Assembly: GCA_947174785.1 (NCBI GenBank)
Contig: CAMWKG010000008.1
Location: 1-63,557, forward strand
From: an uncultured Mollicutes bacterium
GTDB taxonomy: Bacteria > Bacillota_I > Bacilli_A > Acholeplasmatales > Anaeroplasmataceae
Length of the DNA stretch: 63,557 bases
Direction of reading: 5' to 3'
Notes under the pieces: generated by a model
Told to the model about the DNA's origin: nothing
The model's database searches: none
Seen by the model: the letters and a program-made list of their open reading frames with translations, nothing else
Position numbers and translations under genes: made by a program
Shown: piece by piece, positions 3,038 to 21,163 of the stretch
How positions within the stretch are numbered: position 1 is the first letter of the stretch
Layout: the number at the start of each line of letters is the position of its first letter

Positions 3038-3499
3038 ACAGGCAAAATCCCTATTTTGGGGGAGGACTATTTATTTCTTAGTATCTATACTAAGTGGTAA
3101 ATAAGAGGCACTAGGTTCGGGTTCAAACAACAAGAAGAAGACCCAAGACTTCTTCCCATAACTTAATTACCAAACCAATCTTCATTTGACATAAGAAATC
3201 TTAATAATTTTTTATTCTCTTTTTAAAAACATACTTCACAAAAATAAATTTTTTTCCAGTATAGATTGAAAAAAGAAAAGGAGAATCTATTCTTATGTAT
3301 AAACATAATTCTATCTAGTAAAAAATCAAGGTTTAGTCCTTGCGGAAGAATGGGCTATACTAATAGCCCATTGGACGCAAACTAAACCGCCTTTTAGATA
3401 GGATGAATTTGATCTATTATCAAGTCAATAATGAAGATGTTTAAAACATAGGACAAACTTTCTCCTGCATAAAATTATGTACAAGAATGGAGAAAGCTT
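3038..3499. other. Non-coding spacer between R-M genes and recombinase module
   Basis: No ORF of note in about 460 nt. It holds a hairpin (CTTAGTA 3077-3083, loop TCTA, TACTAAG 3088-3094, with weaker outer pairs) and the nested multi-stem element at 3311-3401. It may carry recombination sites or a small RNA for the serine recombinases that follow. Confidence 0.5.
3311..3401 (+). ncRNA. Candidate structured RNA or recombination-site element
   Basis: Four collinear nested stems are directly visible: CTATCTA (3311-3317) with TAGATAG (3395-3401); GGTTTAGT (3330-3337) with ACTAAACC (3381-3388); TTGCG (3340-3344) with CGCAA (3376-3380); TGGGCTAT (3351-3358) with ATAGCCCA (3363-3370), loop ACTA. 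All are perfect. I do not recognise a known RNA family. It lies 100-200 nt before a recombinase operon, so it could be a leader RNA or a DNA hairpin site. Confidence 0.5.
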
Positions 3500-3655
3500 A
3501 TGCCTAATAAAATAGAATATAAAGTAGAAAGGACCTTTTCAAGCGATGGTCCTACCTTATTAGAAAAAATAATGGAGTATCTTTTTGAACAGGAGGATAT
3601 AAATATAGATGAATCTAGAATTGAACCACCACCAGAGCTTAATAGAAATATATAA
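3500..3655 (+). CDS. 51-residue recombinase-associated protein
   Basis: Small ORF starting MPNKIEYKVERTFS and ending ELNRNI, with RBS GGAGA about 7 nt before the ATG. Its 3' end overlaps the recombinase start at 3609 by 47 nt in another frame. From memory, small proteins with the pattern EYKVERTFS.DG are found next to large serine recombinases in clostridial mobile elements; the function is not known to me. The overlap implies translational coupling with the recombinase. Confidence 0.7.
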   Translation: MPNKIEYKVERTFSSDGPTLLEKIMEYLFEQEDINIDESRIEPPPELNRNI

Positions 3656-5270
3656 TGTAGGTATCTATTGCCGTCTTTCTAAGGATGATAATAAAGGCAC
3701 AGAATCTAACTCAATCACCAGTCAAAAAGAAAGCTTGACTGACTATGTAAAACGACAAGGATGGTTTTTACATAAGGTCTATATTGATGATGGATTTTCT
3801 GGAGTATCCTTTGACAGACCCGCATTTAAGGATATGATTTCTGATATTGAAAAAGGATATTTAAACTGTGTTGTAGTCAAAGATTTATCTCGTCTAGGAA
3901 GAAACTACCTAGACAGTGGATATTACATAGAAAAATATTTTCCAGAACACAATATCCGATTTGTTGCGGTGAATGATTCTTTCGATTCAATAGATGGAGA
4001 AAATGATTTTGGACCATTTAAAAATATTATTAATGAATGGTATGCTAAGGATATATCAAAGAAGATAAAATTTAGCTTTACTACAAAAGCTAAACAAGGA
4101 AACTTAATTCAAGGCTTTGCTCCTTATGGTTATGTAAAAGCTAAAGATTCTTTAGATTTTGAAATTGATGAAGAAGCAGCTAAAGTCATCTCATACATCT
4201 TCAAAAGCATCTATAATAAAATCCCTGCTAAAGAAGTTATTGATACCTTGAAAAAGAATAAGGTCTATATACCAGGATATTATAACTATATGAAAAAGAA
4301 TGTATGTAAAGAAAAATATGTCTACATAAGTGAAGAAAAGAAATATGCTTGGGATTATTGGAAGCTAGATAGTATTCTAGCAAACGAAATCTATGTTGGA
4401 ACATTAATCAATTTTAAAAAACGAAAAGTAAGCTTTAGAAGTAAAAAACTGGTTCCTAATGACCTATCCAAAATTTTGAAAATAGAGAATCGTTTTCCAG
4501 CCATTATCTCTAAAGAAATGTTTACTGCAGTTCAAGAAATCAGAAGCTCTAAATTTAGAGCTTCAAGAGGGGAACATAAAGAATTCTCTAATTTGATTTA
4601 TTGTGGGGATTGTGGAAGAAAAATAATTCTTAGACGACAATCCAAAAGTAAAGAGCATTATTTTTATTGTGCTAAAGAAACCAAAGGCTGTGGAGGACAC
4701 TATATTCCTTTAATGGTATTACAAGATTTAATCTTGAAAGATTTTAAAGATTTGCAAAGCTTTATTTCTTCAGTTCCTAAAGAAATCCTCCTTTCTAAAT
4801 TAAATCAAATCAATCAACAAAAAAATAACAATCAAATCGCCATTTACCAAAAAGAAAATACAAAAAATGAAAAGCGTCTAAACCATCTAACCGATTTAAT
4901 GAAAAAACTGTTAGACACTTATACTTCAGGAATATTACCTGATGAGGCATATCAGTCTATGATGAAGGACTATAAAAAAGAATATGATGAACTATTCAGT
5001 CAATCTAAAATCTTGAAAACAAAAATAGAGAATACCAAGTCATTTACTGATGAAAAGTTGAGTGAACAACAATTAAACTTCATATTAAGTATAGATGCAA
5101 ATCATCTATTTGAAGAACATCTTCTCAAAAGTATAGTCAAATCCATTCGCATATATGAAACGAATGAAGAAGGAAAAACAGTTAAAATCATCTTAATTGA
5201 ATATTTTGGAATTGGAGTATTAAAGGAGTTATATTATGATGAGCAAAGTAGGAATTTATGCAAGAATTAG
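3609..5270 (+). CDS. Large serine recombinase 1 (CcrA/TnpX-type)
   Basis: Site-specific recombinase that would excise or integrate the mobile element. The N-terminal resolvase domain (about 15-160) has YCRLS with catalytic Ser24, SITSQ, and KDLSRLGRNY. A recombinase domain follows, then a Cys-rich zinc beta-ribbon (CGDCGRK...FYCAKETKGCG, about 333-362) and a C-terminal coiled coil. Its 553 residues are usual for large serine recombinases. RBS AGGAGG lies 11 nt before the ATG, inside the 51-residue ORF. The stop lies 35 nt inside the next recombinase gene, so the two are translationally coupled. Confidence 0.93.
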   Translation: MNLELNHHQSLIEIYNVGIYCRLSKDDNKGTESNSITSQKESLTDYVKRQGWFLHKVYIDDGFSGVSFDRPAFKDMISDIEKGYLNCVVVKDLSRLGRNYLDSGYYIEKYFPEHNIRFVAVNDSFDSIDGENDFGPFKNIINEWYAKDISKKIKFSFTTKAKQGNLIQGFAPYGYVKAKDSLDFEIDEEAAKVISYIFKSIYNKIPAKEVIDTLKKNKVYIPGYYNYMKKNVCKEKYVYISEEKKYAWDYWKLDSILANEIYVGTLINFKKRKVSFRSKKLVPNDLSKILKIENRFPAIISKEMFTAVQEIRSSKFRASRGEHKEFSNLIYCGDCGRKIILRRQSKSKEHYFYCAKETKGCGGHYIPLMVLQDLILKDFKDLQSFISSVPKEILLSKLNQINQQKNNNQIAIYQKENTKNEKRLNHLTDLMKKLLDTYTSGILPDEAYQSMMKDYKKEYDELFSQSKILKTKIENTKSFTDEKLSEQQLNFILSIDANHLFEEHLLKSIVKSIRIYETNEEGKTVKIILIEYFGIGVLKELYYDEQSRNLCKN

Positions 5271-6657
5271 TAGAAGTGATAACCTAGACTTCCACATATC
5301 TATTGAACATCAAATTGAGGGAATTACCGAGTATTGTAATTCCCAACATTTTTCTATAACGAAAATCTATAAGGATATTGGCTATAGTGGCAAAAGCTTT
5401 GACAGACCAGCATTCAAGGAAATGCTACAAGATATTGAAGATGGCATCATCAATACGATCATCGTAAAGGATTTATCCCGCTTTGGAAGAAATCATTTAG
5501 AAGTAGGCAAATACCTAGAGGAAACATTTTTAATTAACGACGTAAGGTTTATAGCTATTGATGATAATTATGATAACCAAGGTATCATTGATGAATCTGC
5601 AGTATTTAAAAATATCTTTAATGAAATGTATTTAAAGGATATAAGGAAAAAAATTAAAACAACCTTTGACTTTAAATCAAAAACTCAACTTTTAAATTCT
5701 AAATTAGGAGCTTTTTACGGATTGAGGCTAGATGAAAACAAAAATTTCATCATTGATGAAGAACCAGCTAAGGTTGTAAAAAGGATATATGATTTATATA
5801 TTCAAGGGGTTACAACCAAGCAAATTGCTGAACTTTTAAATAAAGAGCATATTGTTTCTCCTGGACAATATAGGTATAACCAATATAACGATAAATCTGG
5901 TTTAAAGAATAGAGAGTCTGCCTGGAGAGATTGTTCCATCTATAAGATTTTAACAAATGAGAGCTATACCGGTAAAATTATCAATCGAAAATATATTTAT
6001 GTAAAAGGAAAAAGAATTTTAAATCCCACCCCAGATATTATAGAAAATGGATTGCCAGTCATTATTGAGCCAAGCATATTTCAGCATGTTCAAGAAATCA
6101 GATCAAGCAGACCTAAAAAAAAAGAAAAAGTATATTGTAGTCCTTTCTTAGATAAAATCCAATGTGGACATTGTTCTAAAAGCATGAGATATACTTATTC
6201 TCAAACGATGAATGATTTTTTCTATTGTTGCCCAAAATGTAGGACAAGAATCTATTTGCAGGATTTAATAAAACTTCTTAAAGAAGATATCTCAAAGCAG
6301 CTTTCTACAATTCAAAATAAGGATGTCAAACAATACAAGCAATCTCATATTTCTAAATTAAAAGAAGATATAAAAAGAGTAAATTTAGAAATAAGAAAAG
6401 AGTTTGAAAGCTATGCGAAAAATAAAATTAGTGAGTCTGCATTTCAAGGTACTGTAAAACAACTGATGTTGAAGAAAGAACAACTTAGCTTAGAAATCAA
6501 TAATCAAGAAAAAACTGTTATTCATTCATTAGGAGACCGTTTAGAAGGTATGAAAATTGATTATGTACTCATTAACAAATTAGTAAAAGAAGTGGTAGTT
6601 AAAAATACAGGAAAAAGAAAATATGATGTACATATTAACTATAATTTTAAAGATTAA
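5236..6657 (+). CDS. Large serine recombinase 2 (CcrB-like partner)
   Basis: Second large serine recombinase overlapping the first by 35 nt. The resolvase domain shows GIYARIS with catalytic Ser12, SIEHQ, and KDLSRFGRNH. A recombinase domain and a zinc-ribbon remnant (CGHCSKS...FYCCPKC) follow, then a coiled coil. It is shorter (473 residues) and clearly divergent from its neighbour, so it is an old partner rather than a recent duplicate. Overlapping recombinase pairs are the hallmark of staphylococcal CcrAB and related elements, where both proteins act together. RBS AAAGGAG; ATG codons at 5236 and 5239 are both possible starts. Confidence 0.93.
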   Translation: MMSKVGIYARISRSDNLDFHISIEHQIEGITEYCNSQHFSITKIYKDIGYSGKSFDRPAFKEMLQDIEDGIINTIIVKDLSRFGRNHLEVGKYLEETFLINDVRFIAIDDNYDNQGIIDESAVFKNIFNEMYLKDIRKKIKTTFDFKSKTQLLNSKLGAFYGLRLDENKNFIIDEEPAKVVKRIYDLYIQGVTTKQIAELLNKEHIVSPGQYRYNQYNDKSGLKNRESAWRDCSIYKILTNESYTGKIINRKYIYVKGKRILNPTPDIIENGLPVIIEPSIFQHVQEIRSSRPKKKEKVYCSPFLDKIQCGHCSKSMRYTYSQTMNDFFYCCPKCRTRIYLQDLIKLLKEDISKQLSTIQNKDVKQYKQSHISKLKEDIKRVNLEIRKEFESYAKNKISESAFQGTVKQLMLKKEQLSLEINNQEKTVIHSLGDRLEGMKIDYVLINKLVKEVVVKNTGKRKYDVHINYNFKD

Positions 6658-8941: not shown

Positions 8942-8970
8942 TTGACAAATAATATTTTGTTTGGTATTAT
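8942..8970 (+). promoter_or_regulatory. Strong promoter of the RNase III-viperin operon
   Basis: TTGACA (8942-8947), 17-nt spacer, TATTAT (8965-8970). The transcript would start near 8977 and have a leader of about 195 nt, long and structured. Confidence 0.75.
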
Positions 8971-8976
8971 TATAGT

Positions 8977-9170
8977 GCTAAATAAATAATCAAATAATAA
9001 TATGTTTTGAGAATAGGCTCAAAAAATACACATAGAGATGTGGATTTCAAGCATAGAATTATTTCATTTGCATAATAACATCTTATGATCTTAGATAAGC
9101 TACTTATTTATTTGGCACTGTAGGCTCTAATCCTGCTTACAAACAAATATTTAAATAAGGAGGCTTTTCT
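8977..9170 (+). promoter_or_regulatory. Structured 5' leader with sequestered RBS
   Basis: Hairpins: TTTTGAG (9005-9011) with CTCAAAA (9018-9024); ATGT...GCAT (9038-9054). CTTATTTA (9103-9110) pairs with TAAATAAG (9152-9159), and AGC (9098-9100) with GCT (9163-9165), enclosing the Shine-Dalgarno AAGGAGG (9157-9163). The 41-nt loop between the arms exposes AGGCTCTAATCCTGCTT (9122-9138), which is complementary over 17 nt to the region after the first gene of the operon (11455-11471). Confidence 0.6.
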
Positions 9171-11447
9171 ATGTCAAAACAAAACATAGAAGGGTTTTTG
9201 AGCAACCCTTTTTTCGTTGCTTTAAAAACCCAAAACAATGATTCTAAGTTTATAGAGCTTAGACTTATGGAATCAATCAAAAGAAATTATGATAAAGACT
9301 ATGATTATCCTTATCAAACGATTCTTGATAAATATTGCTCTTATCATAAGGTTGAATTAAGTGACAAATATAAATATCAAAACGACTATTTACGATTAAT
9401 TAAAGAAACTATATTAGAATATCTACTAGAAGAAGACTGCTTAAAGTATTTTTTGGATAATGAAGAAGAAAGTGAGAAGTTTAATAATGTTTTTAAAAGA
9501 AAACAATTCAATTCCAAACTAATAAAAACAATACTAAATCGAGTTGCATCTTTTATGAGTTTTACATCGTCACAAGACAATAACAACTTATCTTTAATTC
9601 TTTTTAGAGATATTAAAAGAAAAATTGCAGAGTTTAATAACAATTATGTGATACAAGAAATGGGAACTTTAAAAACTATTGTAGATAAAGTGACATCAGG
9701 TGTAAAAACAGAATGTTATTTAGAATTTGGAAAAGGATTTTCTCACTTCTATAGTGAAGAACTGGCAAATTATATTTTTGAGAAGCATGGATATAAATAT
9801 ACCCAAGGTTATAACTCATCTGAATTTCCATTTTTCAATGAAAGTGATGATAAGGTTTTAAGTCTTGCAGTAGTAAATGATGAATCATTCTGGATTTTTA
9901 GTCCACTAAGTCAAAAAACATTACTATCTTTTGCTCATCTTATAGTAAAGCATAATGGCATAAGGCATGCACAGAAATTAATTGATTATGCTTTTGAACG
10001 AGTTTGTGAGGATCGAGTATGTAAGTATCTTTATGATAATAAGCTCAATTTGTATATTTCTTTAAATCCAGAAGAAAAAATGCTTACATGGTGTCTCAAC
10101 AGACTTACCAATCGTTTAAAGTCAGTAACTACTCGAGAAATAGAAGAATCTGATTATGAAGGCTTTTTATATCCTCTTTATAATGGATACGATTTAAAAG
10201 TACAAGAAGGAAAGAAAATCTTTACAAATTTCATTAAAAAAGTATATTCTGATGATGCAGAAAAAATATTCCAATTGTTTGAGAATTTAGATAATATAAT
10301 ACAGGAGTCATTAGTAGTTAACAATCGTGTTCAAAAAAGACGCCTTACCATAAAAACAATGTTGGAAGCAGAATTATTTGGCTATGATGAAAGTAATAAT
10401 CTTAAGAGATTTATGTACGGTTATCATAAAGATTTTGGTACTAAAGAATCTATTCTTGGAAGAATGTATTATCGATGCTTTATCATTAACAAATTAACAG
10501 GAGAAGTTTCAAATGAATGCCTATATGAAATATTTTTTGATATTTTGAATATGATTAATTTTATGCATGGTACAAAATGTTCTTACATCGTTAATCATGA
10601 TTTAAGAAATGAGCATTACTTTTTACTAAAAGATTTGTTAAAAATATATGGTTTTAAAATAGATGATTCTTATAAGGAAAAATATATTACAGCATTGCTT
10701 GATCGTAAGTATGCATCCTTTGAAGAAGTTGAAATGTTCCCTCAATTAGAACAATTGGGAGATGCAATTTATGAGTTGGCAGTAGATAATATTTTATTTT
10801 ATAATCCAAACACAACTTTAGATCATTCAAACCGTGAAAAATTGGTTAAGGCAGATGCACAAATTAAAGTATCAAAAAAAATAGGTTTAAACAAATTATA
10901 TATTTCAAATCTTCACCATTCTCTCAATTCAAAGTATTTAGATTATGAGAAGATTGAAATGGGATTGCATTCATCATTACAAGGAAATTATATTGCAGAT
11001 TCTCTTGAAATGATTATAGGTGCTTTATCTTTAGAATTTGGTTTGCAAAGAGCATTAGATTTTACTACAAAAATTATTTTGGAAGCTAATAGTGATTTAA
11101 AAGAACCAAAAATAGAAAGTTTTGATATTGTATCTCTTAGTCGTTCAAGTATTGACAAAGCTTATTTGAGTAAGATATATCCTTGTCCATTTAGAAGCGA
11201 AGTTTATTATGACCAAGAATATAGTCTGCTTGGATATGCTTTAGGAAAATTACTAAAAATATGTATCATAGGTAATGAAACAAAGGAAAAACGACAAATG
11301 ATTTCAAACACTTCAAATCAAATTTTGCCGCATGACGAAATTGGATATTCTTATACTTATGTTGTGACATACCTATACTATGGTATAGAAGCAACAATAG
11401 AAAAATATAGATCTATAGTTGAGTCTAGCTATAAAGAAAGCAAATAA
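9171..11447 (+). CDS. Large protein with active and degenerate RNase III domains
   Basis: 758 residues. Residues 1-500 match no family I recognise. An RNase III domain spans about 505-640: LEQLGD (526-531) is the signature with catalytic Glu527 and Asp531, and ADSLEMIIGA gives Asp610 and Glu613, the second pair of metal ligands. The E. coli Glu38 equivalent is Pro. Residues 680-752 repeat the pattern without ligands: SLLGYALGKLL matches QLGDAIYELA, and a YLYYGIEATIEKY helix matches ALSLEFGLQRALDF. So it looks like a Dicer-style intramolecular pair, one active and one dead; this is my reading, not a known family. RBS AAGGAGG, 7 nt before ATG. First gene of an operon with viperin and Smr. Confidence 0.8.
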   Translation: MSKQNIEGFLSNPFFVALKTQNNDSKFIELRLMESIKRNYDKDYDYPYQTILDKYCSYHKVELSDKYKYQNDYLRLIKETILEYLLEEDCLKYFLDNEEESEKFNNVFKRKQFNSKLIKTILNRVASFMSFTSSQDNNNLSLILFRDIKRKIAEFNNNYVIQEMGTLKTIVDKVTSGVKTECYLEFGKGFSHFYSEELANYIFEKHGYKYTQGYNSSEFPFFNESDDKVLSLAVVNDESFWIFSPLSQKTLLSFAHLIVKHNGIRHAQKLIDYAFERVCEDRVCKYLYDNKLNLYISLNPEEKMLTWCLNRLTNRLKSVTTREIEESDYEGFLYPLYNGYDLKVQEGKKIFTNFIKKVYSDDAEKIFQLFENLDNIIQESLVVNNRVQKRRLTIKTMLEAELFGYDESNNLKRFMYGYHKDFGTKESILGRMYYRCFIINKLTGEVSNECLYEIFFDILNMINFMHGTKCSYIVNHDLRNEHYFLLKDLLKIYGFKIDDSYKEKYITALLDRKYASFEEVEMFPQLEQLGDAIYELAVDNILFYNPNTTLDHSNREKLVKADAQIKVSKKIGLNKLYISNLHHSLNSKYLDYEKIEMGLHSSLQGNYIADSLEMIIGALSLEFGLQRALDFTTKIILEANSDLKEPKIESFDIVSLSRSSIDKAYLSKIYPCPFRSEVYYDQEYSLLGYALGKLLKICIIGNETKEKRQMISNTSNQILPHDEIGYSYTYVVTYLYYGIEATIEKYRSIVESSYKESK

Positions 11448-11454
11448 TTAAATC

Positions 11455-11471
11455 AAGCAGGGTTAGAGCCT
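11455..11471 (+). repeat. Arm complementary to the operon leader
   Basis: AAGCAGGGTTAGAGCCT pairs with AGGCTCTAATCCTGCTT at 9122-9138 over all 17 positions, with one G.U wobble in RNA. It lies between the stop of the RNase III gene and the RBS of the viperin gene. Base pairing would close the whole 2.3-kb gene into an RNA loop, or pair two transcripts, creating an RNase III-type substrate. Confidence 0.7.
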
Positions 11472-11500
11472 CTAAAAAATATGATTTAGAGGTGAAAAAA

Positions 11501-12283
11501 ATGAAAAAAATAACTTTTAATTTACATTTTACAGATTTCTGTAATTTCAAATGTAAGCATTGCTTTGTGAATAAGCAGGGCAAAGAATTATCGTTAAACA
11601 ATATTAAAATTATCATTGACAAAATAGCTTCTTATTCCAAAGAGAATAATATTGAGTCTAGAATTAATTTGGCAGGTGGTGAACCACTTGTCTCAAAGAA
11701 TATACAATTTATTATTGATTATATTTATTCTAAAGGAATAGAAGTGTCAATTATAACCAATGGATTAGCTTTGTCAAAGGATTTTATAGAGCAAAATAAG
11801 AGTAAGGTTTCTATGATTGGAATAAGCGTTGATTCATTGCATTATCAGACAAACTTTCAAATAGGAAGACATTTATATAATAAAACTCTTTTAGAGAACG
11901 AATTAGTTGAAAAATGTTTATTCATTAAATCTAATGGCATTAAACTTAAAATTAATACGTGTGTTATGTCTTTAAATAAAAATGAAGATTTGCATAATTT
12001 TTTTGAAAAAGTGAATCCAGATAGGATTAAGATACTAAGAGTGTTTTGTGAACATGATGAAAATCTTAATTATCTTTTAATATCCGATAAAGAATGGCAT
12101 GATATACAATTAAAATATTCAGATTTAAAGGTGGTTTTTGAAGATAATGATTATATGAGGGATAGTTATTTAATCATTGATTCAGAAGGAAATCTATCGA
12201 AAAATAATCTTCATTTAAATAATAATTCATTATTAAGTAAAAGTGTAGATGACTGCCTTGATGCTTTGAAACAAGTGAATTGA
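11501..12283 (+). CDS. Prokaryotic viperin homologue (radical SAM)
   Basis: Viperins convert a nucleoside triphosphate to its 3'-deoxy-3',4'-didehydro form, a chain terminator of viral RNA polymerases. Evidence: radical-SAM motif CNFKCKHC (Cys14, Cys18, Cys21), NLAGGEP (SAM-binding GGE motif), SVDSL, and the viperin-type C-terminal MRDSYLIIDSEGNL, close in pattern to the MKDSYLILDE segment of animal viperin. 260 residues is shorter than many bacterial viperins. ATG at 11501 has RBS AGAGGTG with 6-nt spacing; the GTG at 11492 is within that RBS. A nucleotide kinase, the usual partner, is absent. Instead RNase III-type and Smr genes flank it. Confidence 0.88.
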   Translation: MKKITFNLHFTDFCNFKCKHCFVNKQGKELSLNNIKIIIDKIASYSKENNIESRINLAGGEPLVSKNIQFIIDYIYSKGIEVSIITNGLALSKDFIEQNKSKVSMIGISVDSLHYQTNFQIGRHLYNKTLLENELVEKCLFIKSNGIKLKINTCVMSLNKNEDLHNFFEKVNPDRIKILRVFCEHDENLNYLLISDKEWHDIQLKYSDLKVVFEDNDYMRDSYLIIDSEGNLSKNNLHLNNNSLLSKSVDDCLDALKQVN

Positions 12284-12293
12284 GGTATAGAAT

Positions 12294-12530
12294 ATGTCAG
12301 TAGAACTTGATTTACATGGGTTTACAATTCCACAAGCTATCCATATGATTCAGCGAACAATAGTTGCGAATCCTAAATGTACCTGTATTGAAGTAATACA
12401 TGGTTATAATAATGGATGTATTTTGAAAAATGTTTTGAAGAATAAGTATAATATTCATAATCGAAAAGTAATAAAAACTGTTCCAGCACCTTTTAATGAA
12501 GGAAGAACACTTATATTTCTTGAGAATTGA
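12294..12530 (+). CDS. Stand-alone Smr-domain protein
   Basis: Smr domains bind or cut nucleic acids, for example in MutS2 and in RNA-cleaving SmrB. The motif DLHGFTIPQA (6-15) and IEVIHGYNNGCILKNVL (HGxGxGxL-type; here HGYNNG) define the fold. 78 residues is just the bare domain. It starts 10 nt after the viperin stop, with a weak GAGG RBS within the stop region, so it is co-translated with viperin. Its presence next to an RNase III-type protein suggests a role in RNA cleavage. Confidence 0.85.
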   Translation: MSVELDLHGFTIPQAIHMIQRTIVANPKCTCIEVIHGYNNGCILKNVLKNKYNIHNRKVIKTVPAPFNEGRTLIFLEN

Positions 12531-12580: not shown

Positions 12581-12745
12581 ATGGGAAAGAACAAGCAAGG
12601 TGTTTCATCTTATACACATACACAGCAACAAAGAGATCATTATGCAAATCAGCATAATCCTAACAATGCTGCACATCAAGCAAATAATAATAACCATGCT
12701 AATCAGTTAAATCCTAATAATCCAAATTATAAAGGAAAACGATAA
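12581..12745 (+). CDS. 54-residue Asn-rich small protein
   Basis: Starts MGKNKQGVSSYTH with a strong RBS (GAAAGGGGG) and ends NYKGKR. It has two similar NQxNPNN motifs (NQHNPNNAAHQAN, NQLNPNNPNY). Such small Asn-rich proteins occur in clostridial genomes, where they are sometimes wrongly labelled alpha-amylase; the function is unknown. It is last in the viperin operon, or a separate unit 50 nt downstream of smr. Confidence 0.7.
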   Translation: MGKNKQGVSSYTHTQQQRDHYANQHNPNNAAHQANNNNHANQLNPNNPNYKGKR

Positions 12746-12756
12746 GATTAGTATAA

Positions 12757-12806
12757 AAGCCTTACCAACAAAGATTACTTGTAAAATTGGTAAGGCTTTA
12801 TTTTAT
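12757..12806 (+). terminator. Terminator of the RNase III-viperin operon
   Basis: AAGCCTTACCAA (12757-12768) pairs perfectly with TTGGTAAGGCTT (12787-12798), followed by TATTTTAT. A 12-bp stem. Confidence 0.85.
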
Positions 12807-14035: not shown

Positions 14036-14080
14036 AAAAGCCCCACAAAGCACAGAGTAATGCTTTGTAGGGGCTTTTTT
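14036..14080. terminator. Bidirectional terminator between fic and the VWA gene
   Basis: AAAAGCCCC(A)CAAAGCA pairs with TGCTTTG(T)AGGGGCTTTT. T tracts on both strands serve the convergent genes; the VWA stop codon (TAA, minus strand) lies in it. Confidence 0.9.
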
Positions 14081-15446
14081 ATATTTCTATATCGCAACAT
14101 TTAAAGTCAAAATCAATATAGTTTGCAATTAGTCTTACTTTGTATTTCTTTGTATTGCACATAGCACAAGAACTTCCATTATCTATGTCTCCAGGTATTA
14201 CAAATTTAATGCACCGAAGAGTTACATTTTGACAAGTTGTGCCTGTAAGAGCTGGTATCGTTAATGTCTTCATACCTCGAGTATGTTCTTCATCATTACA
14301 GTCAATTTCGTTTAATAAAATAGCTAACGCAACTCTCTTGTTAGGACATACATCATTGATAGTTACATCAAACTGGAAGATATGTCCTAGGGATTCTAAG
14401 CTGACATCTCCCAGATCAAATTCAATAGAATCCTCACAGCCATTGATGCTTACATCAATTGGATCAGGACATGGTTCTATAATGATATTAGAACAATCAA
14501 TTTCTATTGTAGGATCAGGGAAAGTTGCAGTATTTCCTTCAGTGTCACTATAAGCGATACTTTCATTTACAACTGTAGTTCCTGTACAAACACCATTATG
14601 CTGAACAGTAAATATTAAAGAAGCACCTTCGCTTTGTGTTACACCAAGCTCATCAATTTTCCATTCGATTGTATTTGAATCAAGTAAGCTTGCCGTTCCT
14701 TTTGTAGGGGCTGACATTGCTATTATTTTAAAACAGTCTGAAATCTTGTCTGTAAGAACAATGTTGGTTGCACCCGGTTTGGAAATATTATTTGCTAAAT
14801 CCTCAAACAAATCTTCTAATTCAGTGTCGTTTGGTGTGATTGCTACATAAGCTGCATCTGGATCTGATGACCAGTCATTTAAAGCCTGAACATCTATACC
14901 ACCATTGCCAGAAAGACCTATACAGTAAATAATGACACCCTCGGCTTTTGCCTGTGTTGCGACAGTATTTGGATTACCACCAGCAGTAGTAATACCATCT
15001 GTAAACATAACCATAACCTTGGCATTCGGAGAACTCATATCAAATAAATCTAAAGCTTTAGTAAAAGCATCTGCATGATTGGTAGACCCATCTGCGTTGA
15101 GGGAATCTACTGCCGTTTTTAAATCTGCAACAGAAGTGATTAGTTGTGTATTTTGTGTTGCAGTATCTGCAAAGCTCACAATACCAATACGACTACCATT
15201 TCCTATTTGACCATCCTGTGTACCATCAGTAGCTTCATCAATAATGTCAATGAATTTCTTAGCTCCATTTTTCATATTTGTTAAAGGACTTCCTGCCATA
15301 CTACCAGATCTGTCTAGGATTAAGACAATATCTGTTGGATTAGTAACGATATCAGGTGCGGCAGTTAAGGACAATGTCACTTGAAATGATTCATTACATT
15401 TAATACTGGTTTTATTAATTTCCTTATTTGAAAGTGTTAAACCCAT
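14079..15446 (-). CDS. von Willebrand factor A domain protein, Cys-rich tail
   Basis: A VWA domain (about 35-220) carries the metal-ion-dependent adhesion site DRSGS, the later Thr (MFTDG) and SNH-type residues, so it may bind ligands through a divalent ion. A beta-rich DUF11-like region follows (about 225-320), then a Cys-rich tail with CxxC-type pairs ending SSCAMCNT...FKCCDIEI. There is no signal peptide or anchor, so if it acts outside the cell the export route is unclear; a spore or intracellular role is possible. RBS AAAAGGAGG precedes the ATG. 455 residues, convergent with the second fic gene. Confidence 0.75.
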   Translation of the reverse strand: MGLTLSNKEINKTSIKCNESFQVTLSLTAAPDIVTNPTDIVLILDRSGSMAGSPLTNMKNGAKKFIDIIDEATDGTQDGQIGNGSRIGIVSFADTATQNTQLITSVADLKTAVDSLNADGSTNHADAFTKALDLFDMSSPNAKVMVMFTDGITTAGGNPNTVATQAKAEGVIIYCIGLSGNGGIDVQALNDWSSDPDAAYVAITPNDTELEDLFEDLANNISKPGATNIVLTDKISDCFKIIAMSAPTKGTASLLDSNTIEWKIDELGVTQSEGASLIFTVQHNGVCTGTTVVNESIAYSDTEGNTATFPDPTIEIDCSNIIIEPCPDPIDVSINGCEDSIEFDLGDVSLESLGHIFQFDVTINDVCPNKRVALAILLNEIDCNDEEHTRGMKTLTIPALTGTTCQNVTLRCIKFVIPGDIDNGSSCAMCNTKKYKVRLIANYIDFDFKCCDIEI

Positions 15447-20471: not shown

Positions 20472-20545
20472 GCTGATTTTATTTTTTTGTCGTAATTTTA
20501 GTTTCTTTGTGGTAGAATAGAAGAAGTGTGTGGAGGAATGTAGGT

Positions 20546-21163
20546 ATGAAACCAATTTTAATTGCAATTGCTGGTGGTACAGCAAGTGGAAAAACAACAG
20601 TAGTTGATGAGATTATTAACCATTTTCATTCTGAGGATGTTGCAGTTATCTGTCAGGATAATTATTACAAGGCTCAGGATGATTTATCCTTAGAGGAAAG
20701 AAGAAAGATTAATTATGATCATCCAAACTCTTTTGATTTGGATTTACTATTTGAGGATCTTTCAAGGCTAATGGAAGGTGAAACGATTTTTTCTCCTGTT
20801 TATGATTTTAAGGAGCATAATCGAAAGAAGGATGAAACTACAGCAATTAGTGCAACAAAGGTCATCATATTAGAAGGAATACTTGCATTATATGATTCAA
20901 GAATCAGAAGCTTAAGTGATATTTTGATTTATGTAGAATCTGATCCGGATGTTCGTTTTATTCGAAGATTAAAAAGAGATATCCATGAGCGAGGCAGAGA
21001 TTTAGATAGTGTTATTATGCAGTATTTAAGTACAGTTAAACCAATGTATGATGAATATATTGCTCCTACAAAACGGTTTGCTGATATCATTATTCCTAAC
21101 GATACAAAGCATGATGTAGCTATAGAGATTTTAGCAGCAAAAATTAAAGATATCATAAAATAA
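20546..21163 (+). CDS. udk: Uridine kinase
   Basis: Phosphorylates uridine and cytidine in pyrimidine salvage. Walker A GGTASGKTT (8-16), QDNYY, NYDHPNSFD, and the C-terminal RRLKRDIHERGRD are typical. 205 residues. ATG at 20546 is preceded by GGAGG at 9 nt; an in-frame GTG at 20528 would overlap this RBS. It follows pncC but with 75 nt spacing and a probable promoter, so may be separately transcribed. Confidence 0.95.
   Translation: MKPILIAIAGGTASGKTTVVDEIINHFHSEDVAVICQDNYYKAQDDLSLEERRKINYDHPNSFDLDLLFEDLSRLMEGETIFSPVYDFKEHNRKKDETTAISATKVIILEGILALYDSRIRSLSDILIYVESDPDVRFIRRLKRDIHERGRDLDSVIMQYLSTVKPMYDEYIAPTKRFADIIIPNDTKHDVAIEILAAKIKDIIK

Follow-up and report, generated by a model that had tools for sequence, protein, structure and literature searches.

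Prokaryotic viperins make ddhNTPs and block phage, and their genes commonly, though not obligatorily, adjoin one for a nucleotide kinase. They form an established system (pVip; Bernheim et al. 2021), and genes for the nucleases HicA and RelE have been found adjoining viperins; cooperation between the two was proposed, and their control was raised as a question (PMC10865869). Escherichia coli RNase III cuts the leader of its own gene, rnc, and can be titrated away by its other substrates (PMC5371410); the duplexes bracketing 16S and 23S ribosomal RNA (rRNA) are RNase III sites (PMC8708148), and SmrB uses DLH and HG motifs and cuts messenger RNA (mRNA) on collided ribosomes (PMC10897456). Here we analyzed a stretch of 63,557 nucleotides (nt), referred to below as the window, from an uncultured Mollicutes bacterium of the Anaeroplasmataceae (GCA_947174785.1, contig CAMWKG010000008.1). 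It contains an operon encoding an RNase III-fold protein (gene 1), a viperin (gene 2) and an Smr-domain protein (gene 3), preceded by a structured leader RNA in which one segment, X, pairs with another, X', located between genes 1 and 2 (Table 1). The gene set, its conserved linkage, a gene fusion, the defence-island setting, a covarying leader and a coevolving pairing were all established computationally, and we regard this locus as a viperin system in which both the partner and the form of control are new.

The likeness to pVip resides in gene 2, which agrees with it by a curated model, by motif and by matches to solved structures; here, however, no nucleotide kinase is a neighbor, and its place is taken by an RNase III-like protein of large size, in one case fused to the viperin, accompanied by an Smr protein and a structured leader. 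The original prediction presented the replacement of the kinase by two nucleases as unprecedented, which does not hold in that form given the HicA and RelE genes already on record beside viperins (PMC10865869). What is shared with those loci is a putative RNA-cutting enzyme encoded next to viperin; nevertheless the HicA and RelE proteins, which are mRNA interferases of small size, have a fold unrelated to that of gene 1, while gene 1 has an RNase III-fold core, occurs also without viperin and is accompanied by a long-range RNA pairing. With the autoregulation of rnc (rncO) and the rRNA stems our locus has in common a gene for an RNase III-type protein preceded by a structured leader, and a duplex bracketing a long transcript segment, but rnc is cut within a structure local to its leader, whereas here the partner is located 2.3 kb downstream at the ribosome-binding site (RBS) of another cistron and gene 1 is no orthologue of rnc. 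Similarly, gene 3 displays the DLH and HG motifs of the Smr domains of SmrB and MutS2 (PMC10897456), although it is a stand-alone protein of 78 amino acids without the N-terminal hook of SmrB or the KOW and ATPase parts of MutS2. No RNase III-viperin pair was found in the literature searched, which left out the 2021 pVip paper and its 2024 follow-up, where a mention is possible.

Homologues of gene 1 were searched for in 395 genomes of the class, 84,980 species genomes, the whole order and further groups; the class-wide RNase III matches were mostly ordinary rnc genes and were set aside, and the homologous records named here come from metagenome bins. Seven full-length members of the family were found, including the window (L003 and L025 are the same locus, as are L004 and L026, and the L030 genome was drawn from the order of L029). 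The closest, L002 (66% identical), belongs to the genus of the window and is not independent of it; a viperin is located downstream of gene 1, the contig ending within it. In L003/L025 (45%) the downstream neighbor is Smr, with no viperin above cut-off in the genome, while in L004/L026 (26%), which come from a different family within the class, a single protein of 1046 amino acids fuses gene 1 to viperin. Two clostridial loci, L029 and L030 (30-32%), again have viperin downstream of gene 1; finally, L074 (24%) displays Smr and a small open reading frame (ORF) downstream of it and no viperin in the genome. Since viperin is the neighbor in five of the seven homologues (one of them the fusion) and Smr in three, the small ORF being present in two, what stays constant is the RNase III-like protein, its commonest partner being viperin. 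The fixed three-gene set originally put forward does not hold, then, while the conserved RNase III-viperin synteny that was to be sought in other genomes does exist; it spans three lineages and is not a matter of chance, as in the class sample viperin was present in 3 of 4 genomes having gene 1 vs 8 of 395 genomes overall (P ~2e-5; P 8e-4 excluding the window's own genome). The strongest single sign is the fusion, which suggests that the gene 1 protein and viperin work together.

Gene 1 is sporadic, being present in 3 of 55 genomes of the window's family, and no homologues were detected in plasmid and phage records by tblastn or, in three scans, in viral contigs. Several of its neighbors in the window match PADLOC defence models, namely SoFic (7e-96), PDC-S72 (3e-130) and PDC-M33A/B/C; a C5 DNA methylase (171-1499) and two serine recombinases (3609-6657) are also present, these not being PADLOC matches. 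Moreover, type I HsdM and HsdS adjoin L025, and HsdR adjoins L030. Gene 1 thus lies within a defence island at three loci independent of one another, and its sporadic distribution together with these neighbors fits a mobile defence gene. A divergent gene lacking any Pfam match is found upstream of both clostridial loci (586-1440 in L029, 6568-7398 in L030), which may therefore sit on one mobile element.

All 17 positions of X, one U-G included, are paired with X', which lies 2316 nt further 3', across gene 1; the native duplex has -36.6 kcal/mol (z -5.1, 0 of 2000 shuffles). A leader-spacer pairing formed by different sequences is found at the equivalent place in L002, L003, L029 and L030, so that the 17-nt repeat of the window is not a chance occurrence. 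For the five loci the z values were -5.1, -5.1, -5.3, -8.2 and -8.4, with 0 of 2000 dinucleotide shuffles in each; native leader-spacer duplexes ranged from -34 to -49 kcal/mol vs -13 to -28 when swapped among the three clades. Between the window and L003 five positions have changed on both sides, all 17 pairs being retained. When the entire locus is considered, no segment pairs better with the leader than the spacer in four of these five loci, the window among them, and in the fused L004 both the spacer and the pairing partner are absent. By these comparisons the pairing has coevolved in three divergent clades.

Straight after X' there is a hairpin that covers the RBS of the next cistron in the window, L002, L003, L029 and L030 (in L003, a 25-codon ORF overlaps the Smr start). 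X' bases supply 4-11 pairs at the base of this hairpin, and X and the RBS hairpin compete because both use them. The core of the X:X' duplex (-23 to -35 kcal/mol) exceeds the cost of opening the hairpin (8-13 kcal/mol), and when X' was blocked in silico the predicted RBS openness rose from 0.15-0.33 to 0.35-0.58 in four loci besides the window (0.33 to 0.58 in L029). Toehold switches are laid out in this manner, as are the rRNA-bracketing duplexes cut by RNase III (PMC8708148).

The leader itself, of ~190 nt upstream of gene 1, has a more stable fold than shuffled sequence (z -3.45). RNAalifold on the leaders of the window, L002 and L003 gave 72 pairs, 15 of them changed on both sides, vs 5.6 expected from shuffled alignments (0 of 500) and 1-4 with slid partners; the three-way junction and further hairpins are thus backed by covariation across these loci. 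A covariance model (R1) found the leader only in those 3 of 55 family genomes having gene 1, and nothing above chance in L026, L029, L030 and L074; conservation of the leader sequence is therefore confined to the window's family. No Rfam family corresponds to it, a permissive threshold yielding chance-level matches only. The leader was also considered as a guide with genomic targets, a candidate that was rejected: X occurs once in the genome and is unique at <=3 mismatches.

Gene 1 matches Pfam Ribonuclease_3 (PF00636) with 34.2 bits vs a cut-off of 27. It is composed of a helical N-terminal part of ~475 residues, the RNase III domain (~480-645) and a conserved C-terminal part; two fold models (pLDDT 57.8 for the first, 62.4 for the second) were not strong enough beyond the RNase III domain for the N-terminal part to be named. 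Among solved structures the predicted domain matches nuclease domains of RNase III (Foldseek TMt 0.78), including 3n3w, with a Z of 16.5 over 139 residues. Four acidic residues hold metals in RNase III. Their equivalents in gene 1 are E527, D531, D610 and E613 (E41, D45, D114 and E117 in E. coli), invariant in all seven homologues; D531 and E613 had been correctly named beforehand. On the RNase III equivalog model TIGR02191 gene 1 reaches 27 bits against a cut-off of 166; it belongs to the RNase III superfamily without being an orthologue of rnc.

Gene 2 was scored by the NCBIfam model viperin_w_prok (NF038283) at 212.9 bits vs a cut-off of 180, its best PADLOC match is "Viperins not associated with kinases" (5e-62), and it resembles the solved viperins 6b4c and 5vsl. 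The radical S-adenosylmethionine (SAM) motif CxxxCxxC corresponds to C14/C18/C21 (PF04055, 62 bits), so that both the viperin identity and the cysteines proposed at the outset were confirmed. Elsewhere the NF038283 scores were 268 bits (L029), 260 bits (L030) and 236 bits (the G238 fusion). We place the viperin start at ATG 11501, as GTG 11492 falls within the RBS. No nucleotide kinase is found among the genes of 7-19.5 kb in the window, the nearest being a uridine-kinase-family gene at 20528-21163. In a viperin tree with several open forks the gene 1-associated viperins do not form one clade, and partners have therefore been exchanged or lost; the window's pair clusters with viperins from an Abi/HNH context. 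This second recurring viperin context has a common layout in three genomes (L060 3276-6132, L061 4342-7199 and L062 4429-7211): an Abi_2-like gene (PF07751, just under cut-off) and, by eye, a nucleotidyltransferase-looking gene upstream of viperin, a helix-turn-helix-like small ORF in between, and an HNH endonuclease overlapping the viperin end. On the other side, the viperins of L029 (4231-5352) and L030 (10201-11322) carry a C-terminal tail of ~90 residues resembling DUF2325 (E 0.001 in L030, under the family cut-off); to our knowledge, no viperin with such a tail has been described.

The Smr call for gene 3 is marginal by itself (PF01713, 26.8 vs a cut-off of 25.7 bits) but firm because the homologue in L074 scores 40.9 bits; DLH and HGxxNG motifs are present as well, in agreement with the identity first assigned. 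Gene 3 is 59% identical to the Smr downstream of gene 1 in L025, and Smr is also 3' of gene 1 in L074. The fourth ORF, of 54 codons, has a 62% identical homologue at the equivalent post-Smr place in L074 (3151-3324). Downstream of this viperin-less member (3434-5697) a DEDDh-type exonuclease is encoded along with another protein of the radical SAM type (PF04055) that possibly binds B12.

As for the layout of the operon, the three genes named in the original prediction (RNase III-fold protein, viperin and Smr) are all in the window, while the fourth ORF and the structured 5' leader had been overlooked. A single terminator had also been noted; a 13-bp hairpin does close the unit and is probably the terminator, although its loop exceeds the limit of 8 set in the terminator scan, which did not detect it. 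By eye, a promoter-like site is found at the equivalent place in L029, L030 and L026. Two further elements of the window were recorded: a minus-strand von Willebrand factor A (vWA)-like protein, identified by eye, between two defence genes (14079-15446), and an ordinary SAM riboswitch (RF00162, 22996-23079, 50.8 bits).

Table 1. Elements of the gene 1-viperin-Smr operon, in window coordinates.
Feature	Coordinates	Strand	Description or basis
Promoter	8942..8970	+	TTGACA - 17 nt - TATTAT, TG ahead of second hexamer; sigma-70-like, 11/12 consensus matches
Structured 5' leader RNA	8979..9170	+	Three-way junction, conserved hairpin, hairpin presenting X
Segment X	9122..9138	+	AGGCTCTAATCCTGCTT; apical part of the last hairpin of the leader
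Gene 1, RNase III-fold protein, 758 amino acids	9171..11447	+	PF00636, catalytic residues, fold matches
Segment X'	11455..11471	+	AAGCAGGGTTAGAGCCT; partner of X in the gene 1/viperin spacer; inverted repeat I8
Hairpin GCCTCTAAA/TTTAGAGGT	11468..11493	+	Contains the viperin RBS; stem base common to X'
Gene 2, prokaryotic viperin (radical SAM), 260 amino acids	11501..12283	+	NF038283, PADLOC pVip, structure matches
Gene 3, stand-alone Smr-domain protein, 78 amino acids	12294..12530	+	PF01713, homologues
Fourth ORF, 54 amino acids, Asn/Gln/His-rich	12581..12745	+	Homologue in L074
Closing hairpin AAAGCCTTACCAA/TTGGTAAGGCTTT	12756..12799	+	Inverted repeat I20, 13/13 bp; probable terminator

With the coevolving pairing, a further role becomes possible for the RNase III-like protein, namely to act on its own mRNA. 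We tentatively favor, at a little less than an even chance, a sporadic mobile antiphage operon whose viperin module is set by the long-range RNA duplex, this duplex being handled by the operon's own RNase III-like protein. X would pair across gene 1 with X', and the duplex would both compete with the stem hiding the RBS and offer a double-stranded target. The gene 1 protein would normally bind or cut it, keeping viperin and the downstream genes low; upon infection, phage double-stranded RNA or shut-off would divert the nuclease, the duplex would persist and the RBS would open. Viperin would then produce chain-terminating nucleotides, the gene 1 nuclease and Smr may act upon the same infected transcriptome, and Smr and the small protein would be further cargo of the operon. 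Control of translation by the pairing, cutting by the gene 1 nuclease, the trigger and the antiphage activity are what we infer here; control of the duplex by the nuclease is proposed because rRNA-bracketing duplexes are RNase III sites and because rnc is self-cut and its enzyme titrated. A more general version, which we consider doubtful, is that an RNase III-like sensor guards its own mRNA through a long-range duplex acting as a natural toehold switch and that an exchangeable effector (viperin with or without the DUF2325-like tail, or Smr) is switched on once this guard is lost in infection, which would define a new, RNA-controlled antiviral class.

Several observations count against the duplex-controlled operon. 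Just seven loci are behind the case, apparently all of them metagenome bins, and the covariation of the leader is drawn from three sequences only. The equivalent of E. coli E38, counting from E41, is an invariant proline (P524) in all seven homologues, and Pfam recognised no double-stranded RNA-binding domain in gene 1, residues 650-758 being modelled at low confidence; because of both facts the cutting ability of the protein is not assured. In the window the RBS was barely freed in silico when X' was occupied (0.28 to 0.32 unpaired), and the long-range pairing in L074 was not significant (59/1000). L003 retains the pairing without viperin, thus the target may be any next cistron, or gene 1 itself. 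Lastly, the fusion suggests that the proteins act jointly, and regulation alone would not account for it.

The strongest alternative, taken up from the original prediction, is that of co-effectors: phage transcripts that are chain-terminated or stalled would be destroyed by the RNase III-like protein together with Smr, with viperin providing the terminators and the RNA elements doing no more than tune expression. Side-by-side action is suggested by the single-chain fusion, the Smr protein bears the two motifs, DLH and HG, employed by SmrB on collided ribosomes (PMC10897456), and HicA and RelE nucleases likewise adjoin viperins (PMC10865869); however, the genomes of two homologues have no viperin above cut-off, three homologues have no Smr beside gene 1 (not determinable in L002), and the coevolving pairing over 2.3 kb is left unexplained, so we rate it as unlikely. 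More improbable still is a toxin-antitoxin-like arrangement in which the gene 1 protein is a toxic nuclease silenced by its own leader RNA, somewhat like type III, with viperin as cargo. Gene 1 is the constant part, its start sits within a conserved hairpin, and the structured leader is found only ahead of it; but type III systems place a tandem-repeat RNA and a terminator before the toxin, while our leader has no such repeats, belongs to the transcript of gene 1 with no terminator in between, and X' would have no explanation.

The two serine recombinases near the operon, and the fact that the arms X and X' flank gene 1 in opposite orientation, would be compatible with gene 1 being an invertible DNA cassette. 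We judged this very unlikely, since the orientation is identical in all homologues and the arms vary between clades, are imperfect (bulges, U-G) and are located in RNA hairpins around ribosome-binding sites; besides, no recombinase was seen beside gene 1 in the stretches read of L025, L029 and L030. That a duplicated housekeeping RNase III gene landed by chance beside viperin is barely credible, for although its domain is recognisably RNase III, its equivalog score is far below the cut-off, its distribution is sporadic, and the viperin linkage is repeated and includes a fusion.

Viperin, an antiviral enzyme that humans also have, is thus tied to an RNase III-type protein by synteny and by fusion. 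The coevolved duplex before the viperin start is, in turn, a candidate answer to the question of how toxic viperin-nuclease loci stay off until infection (PMC10865869).

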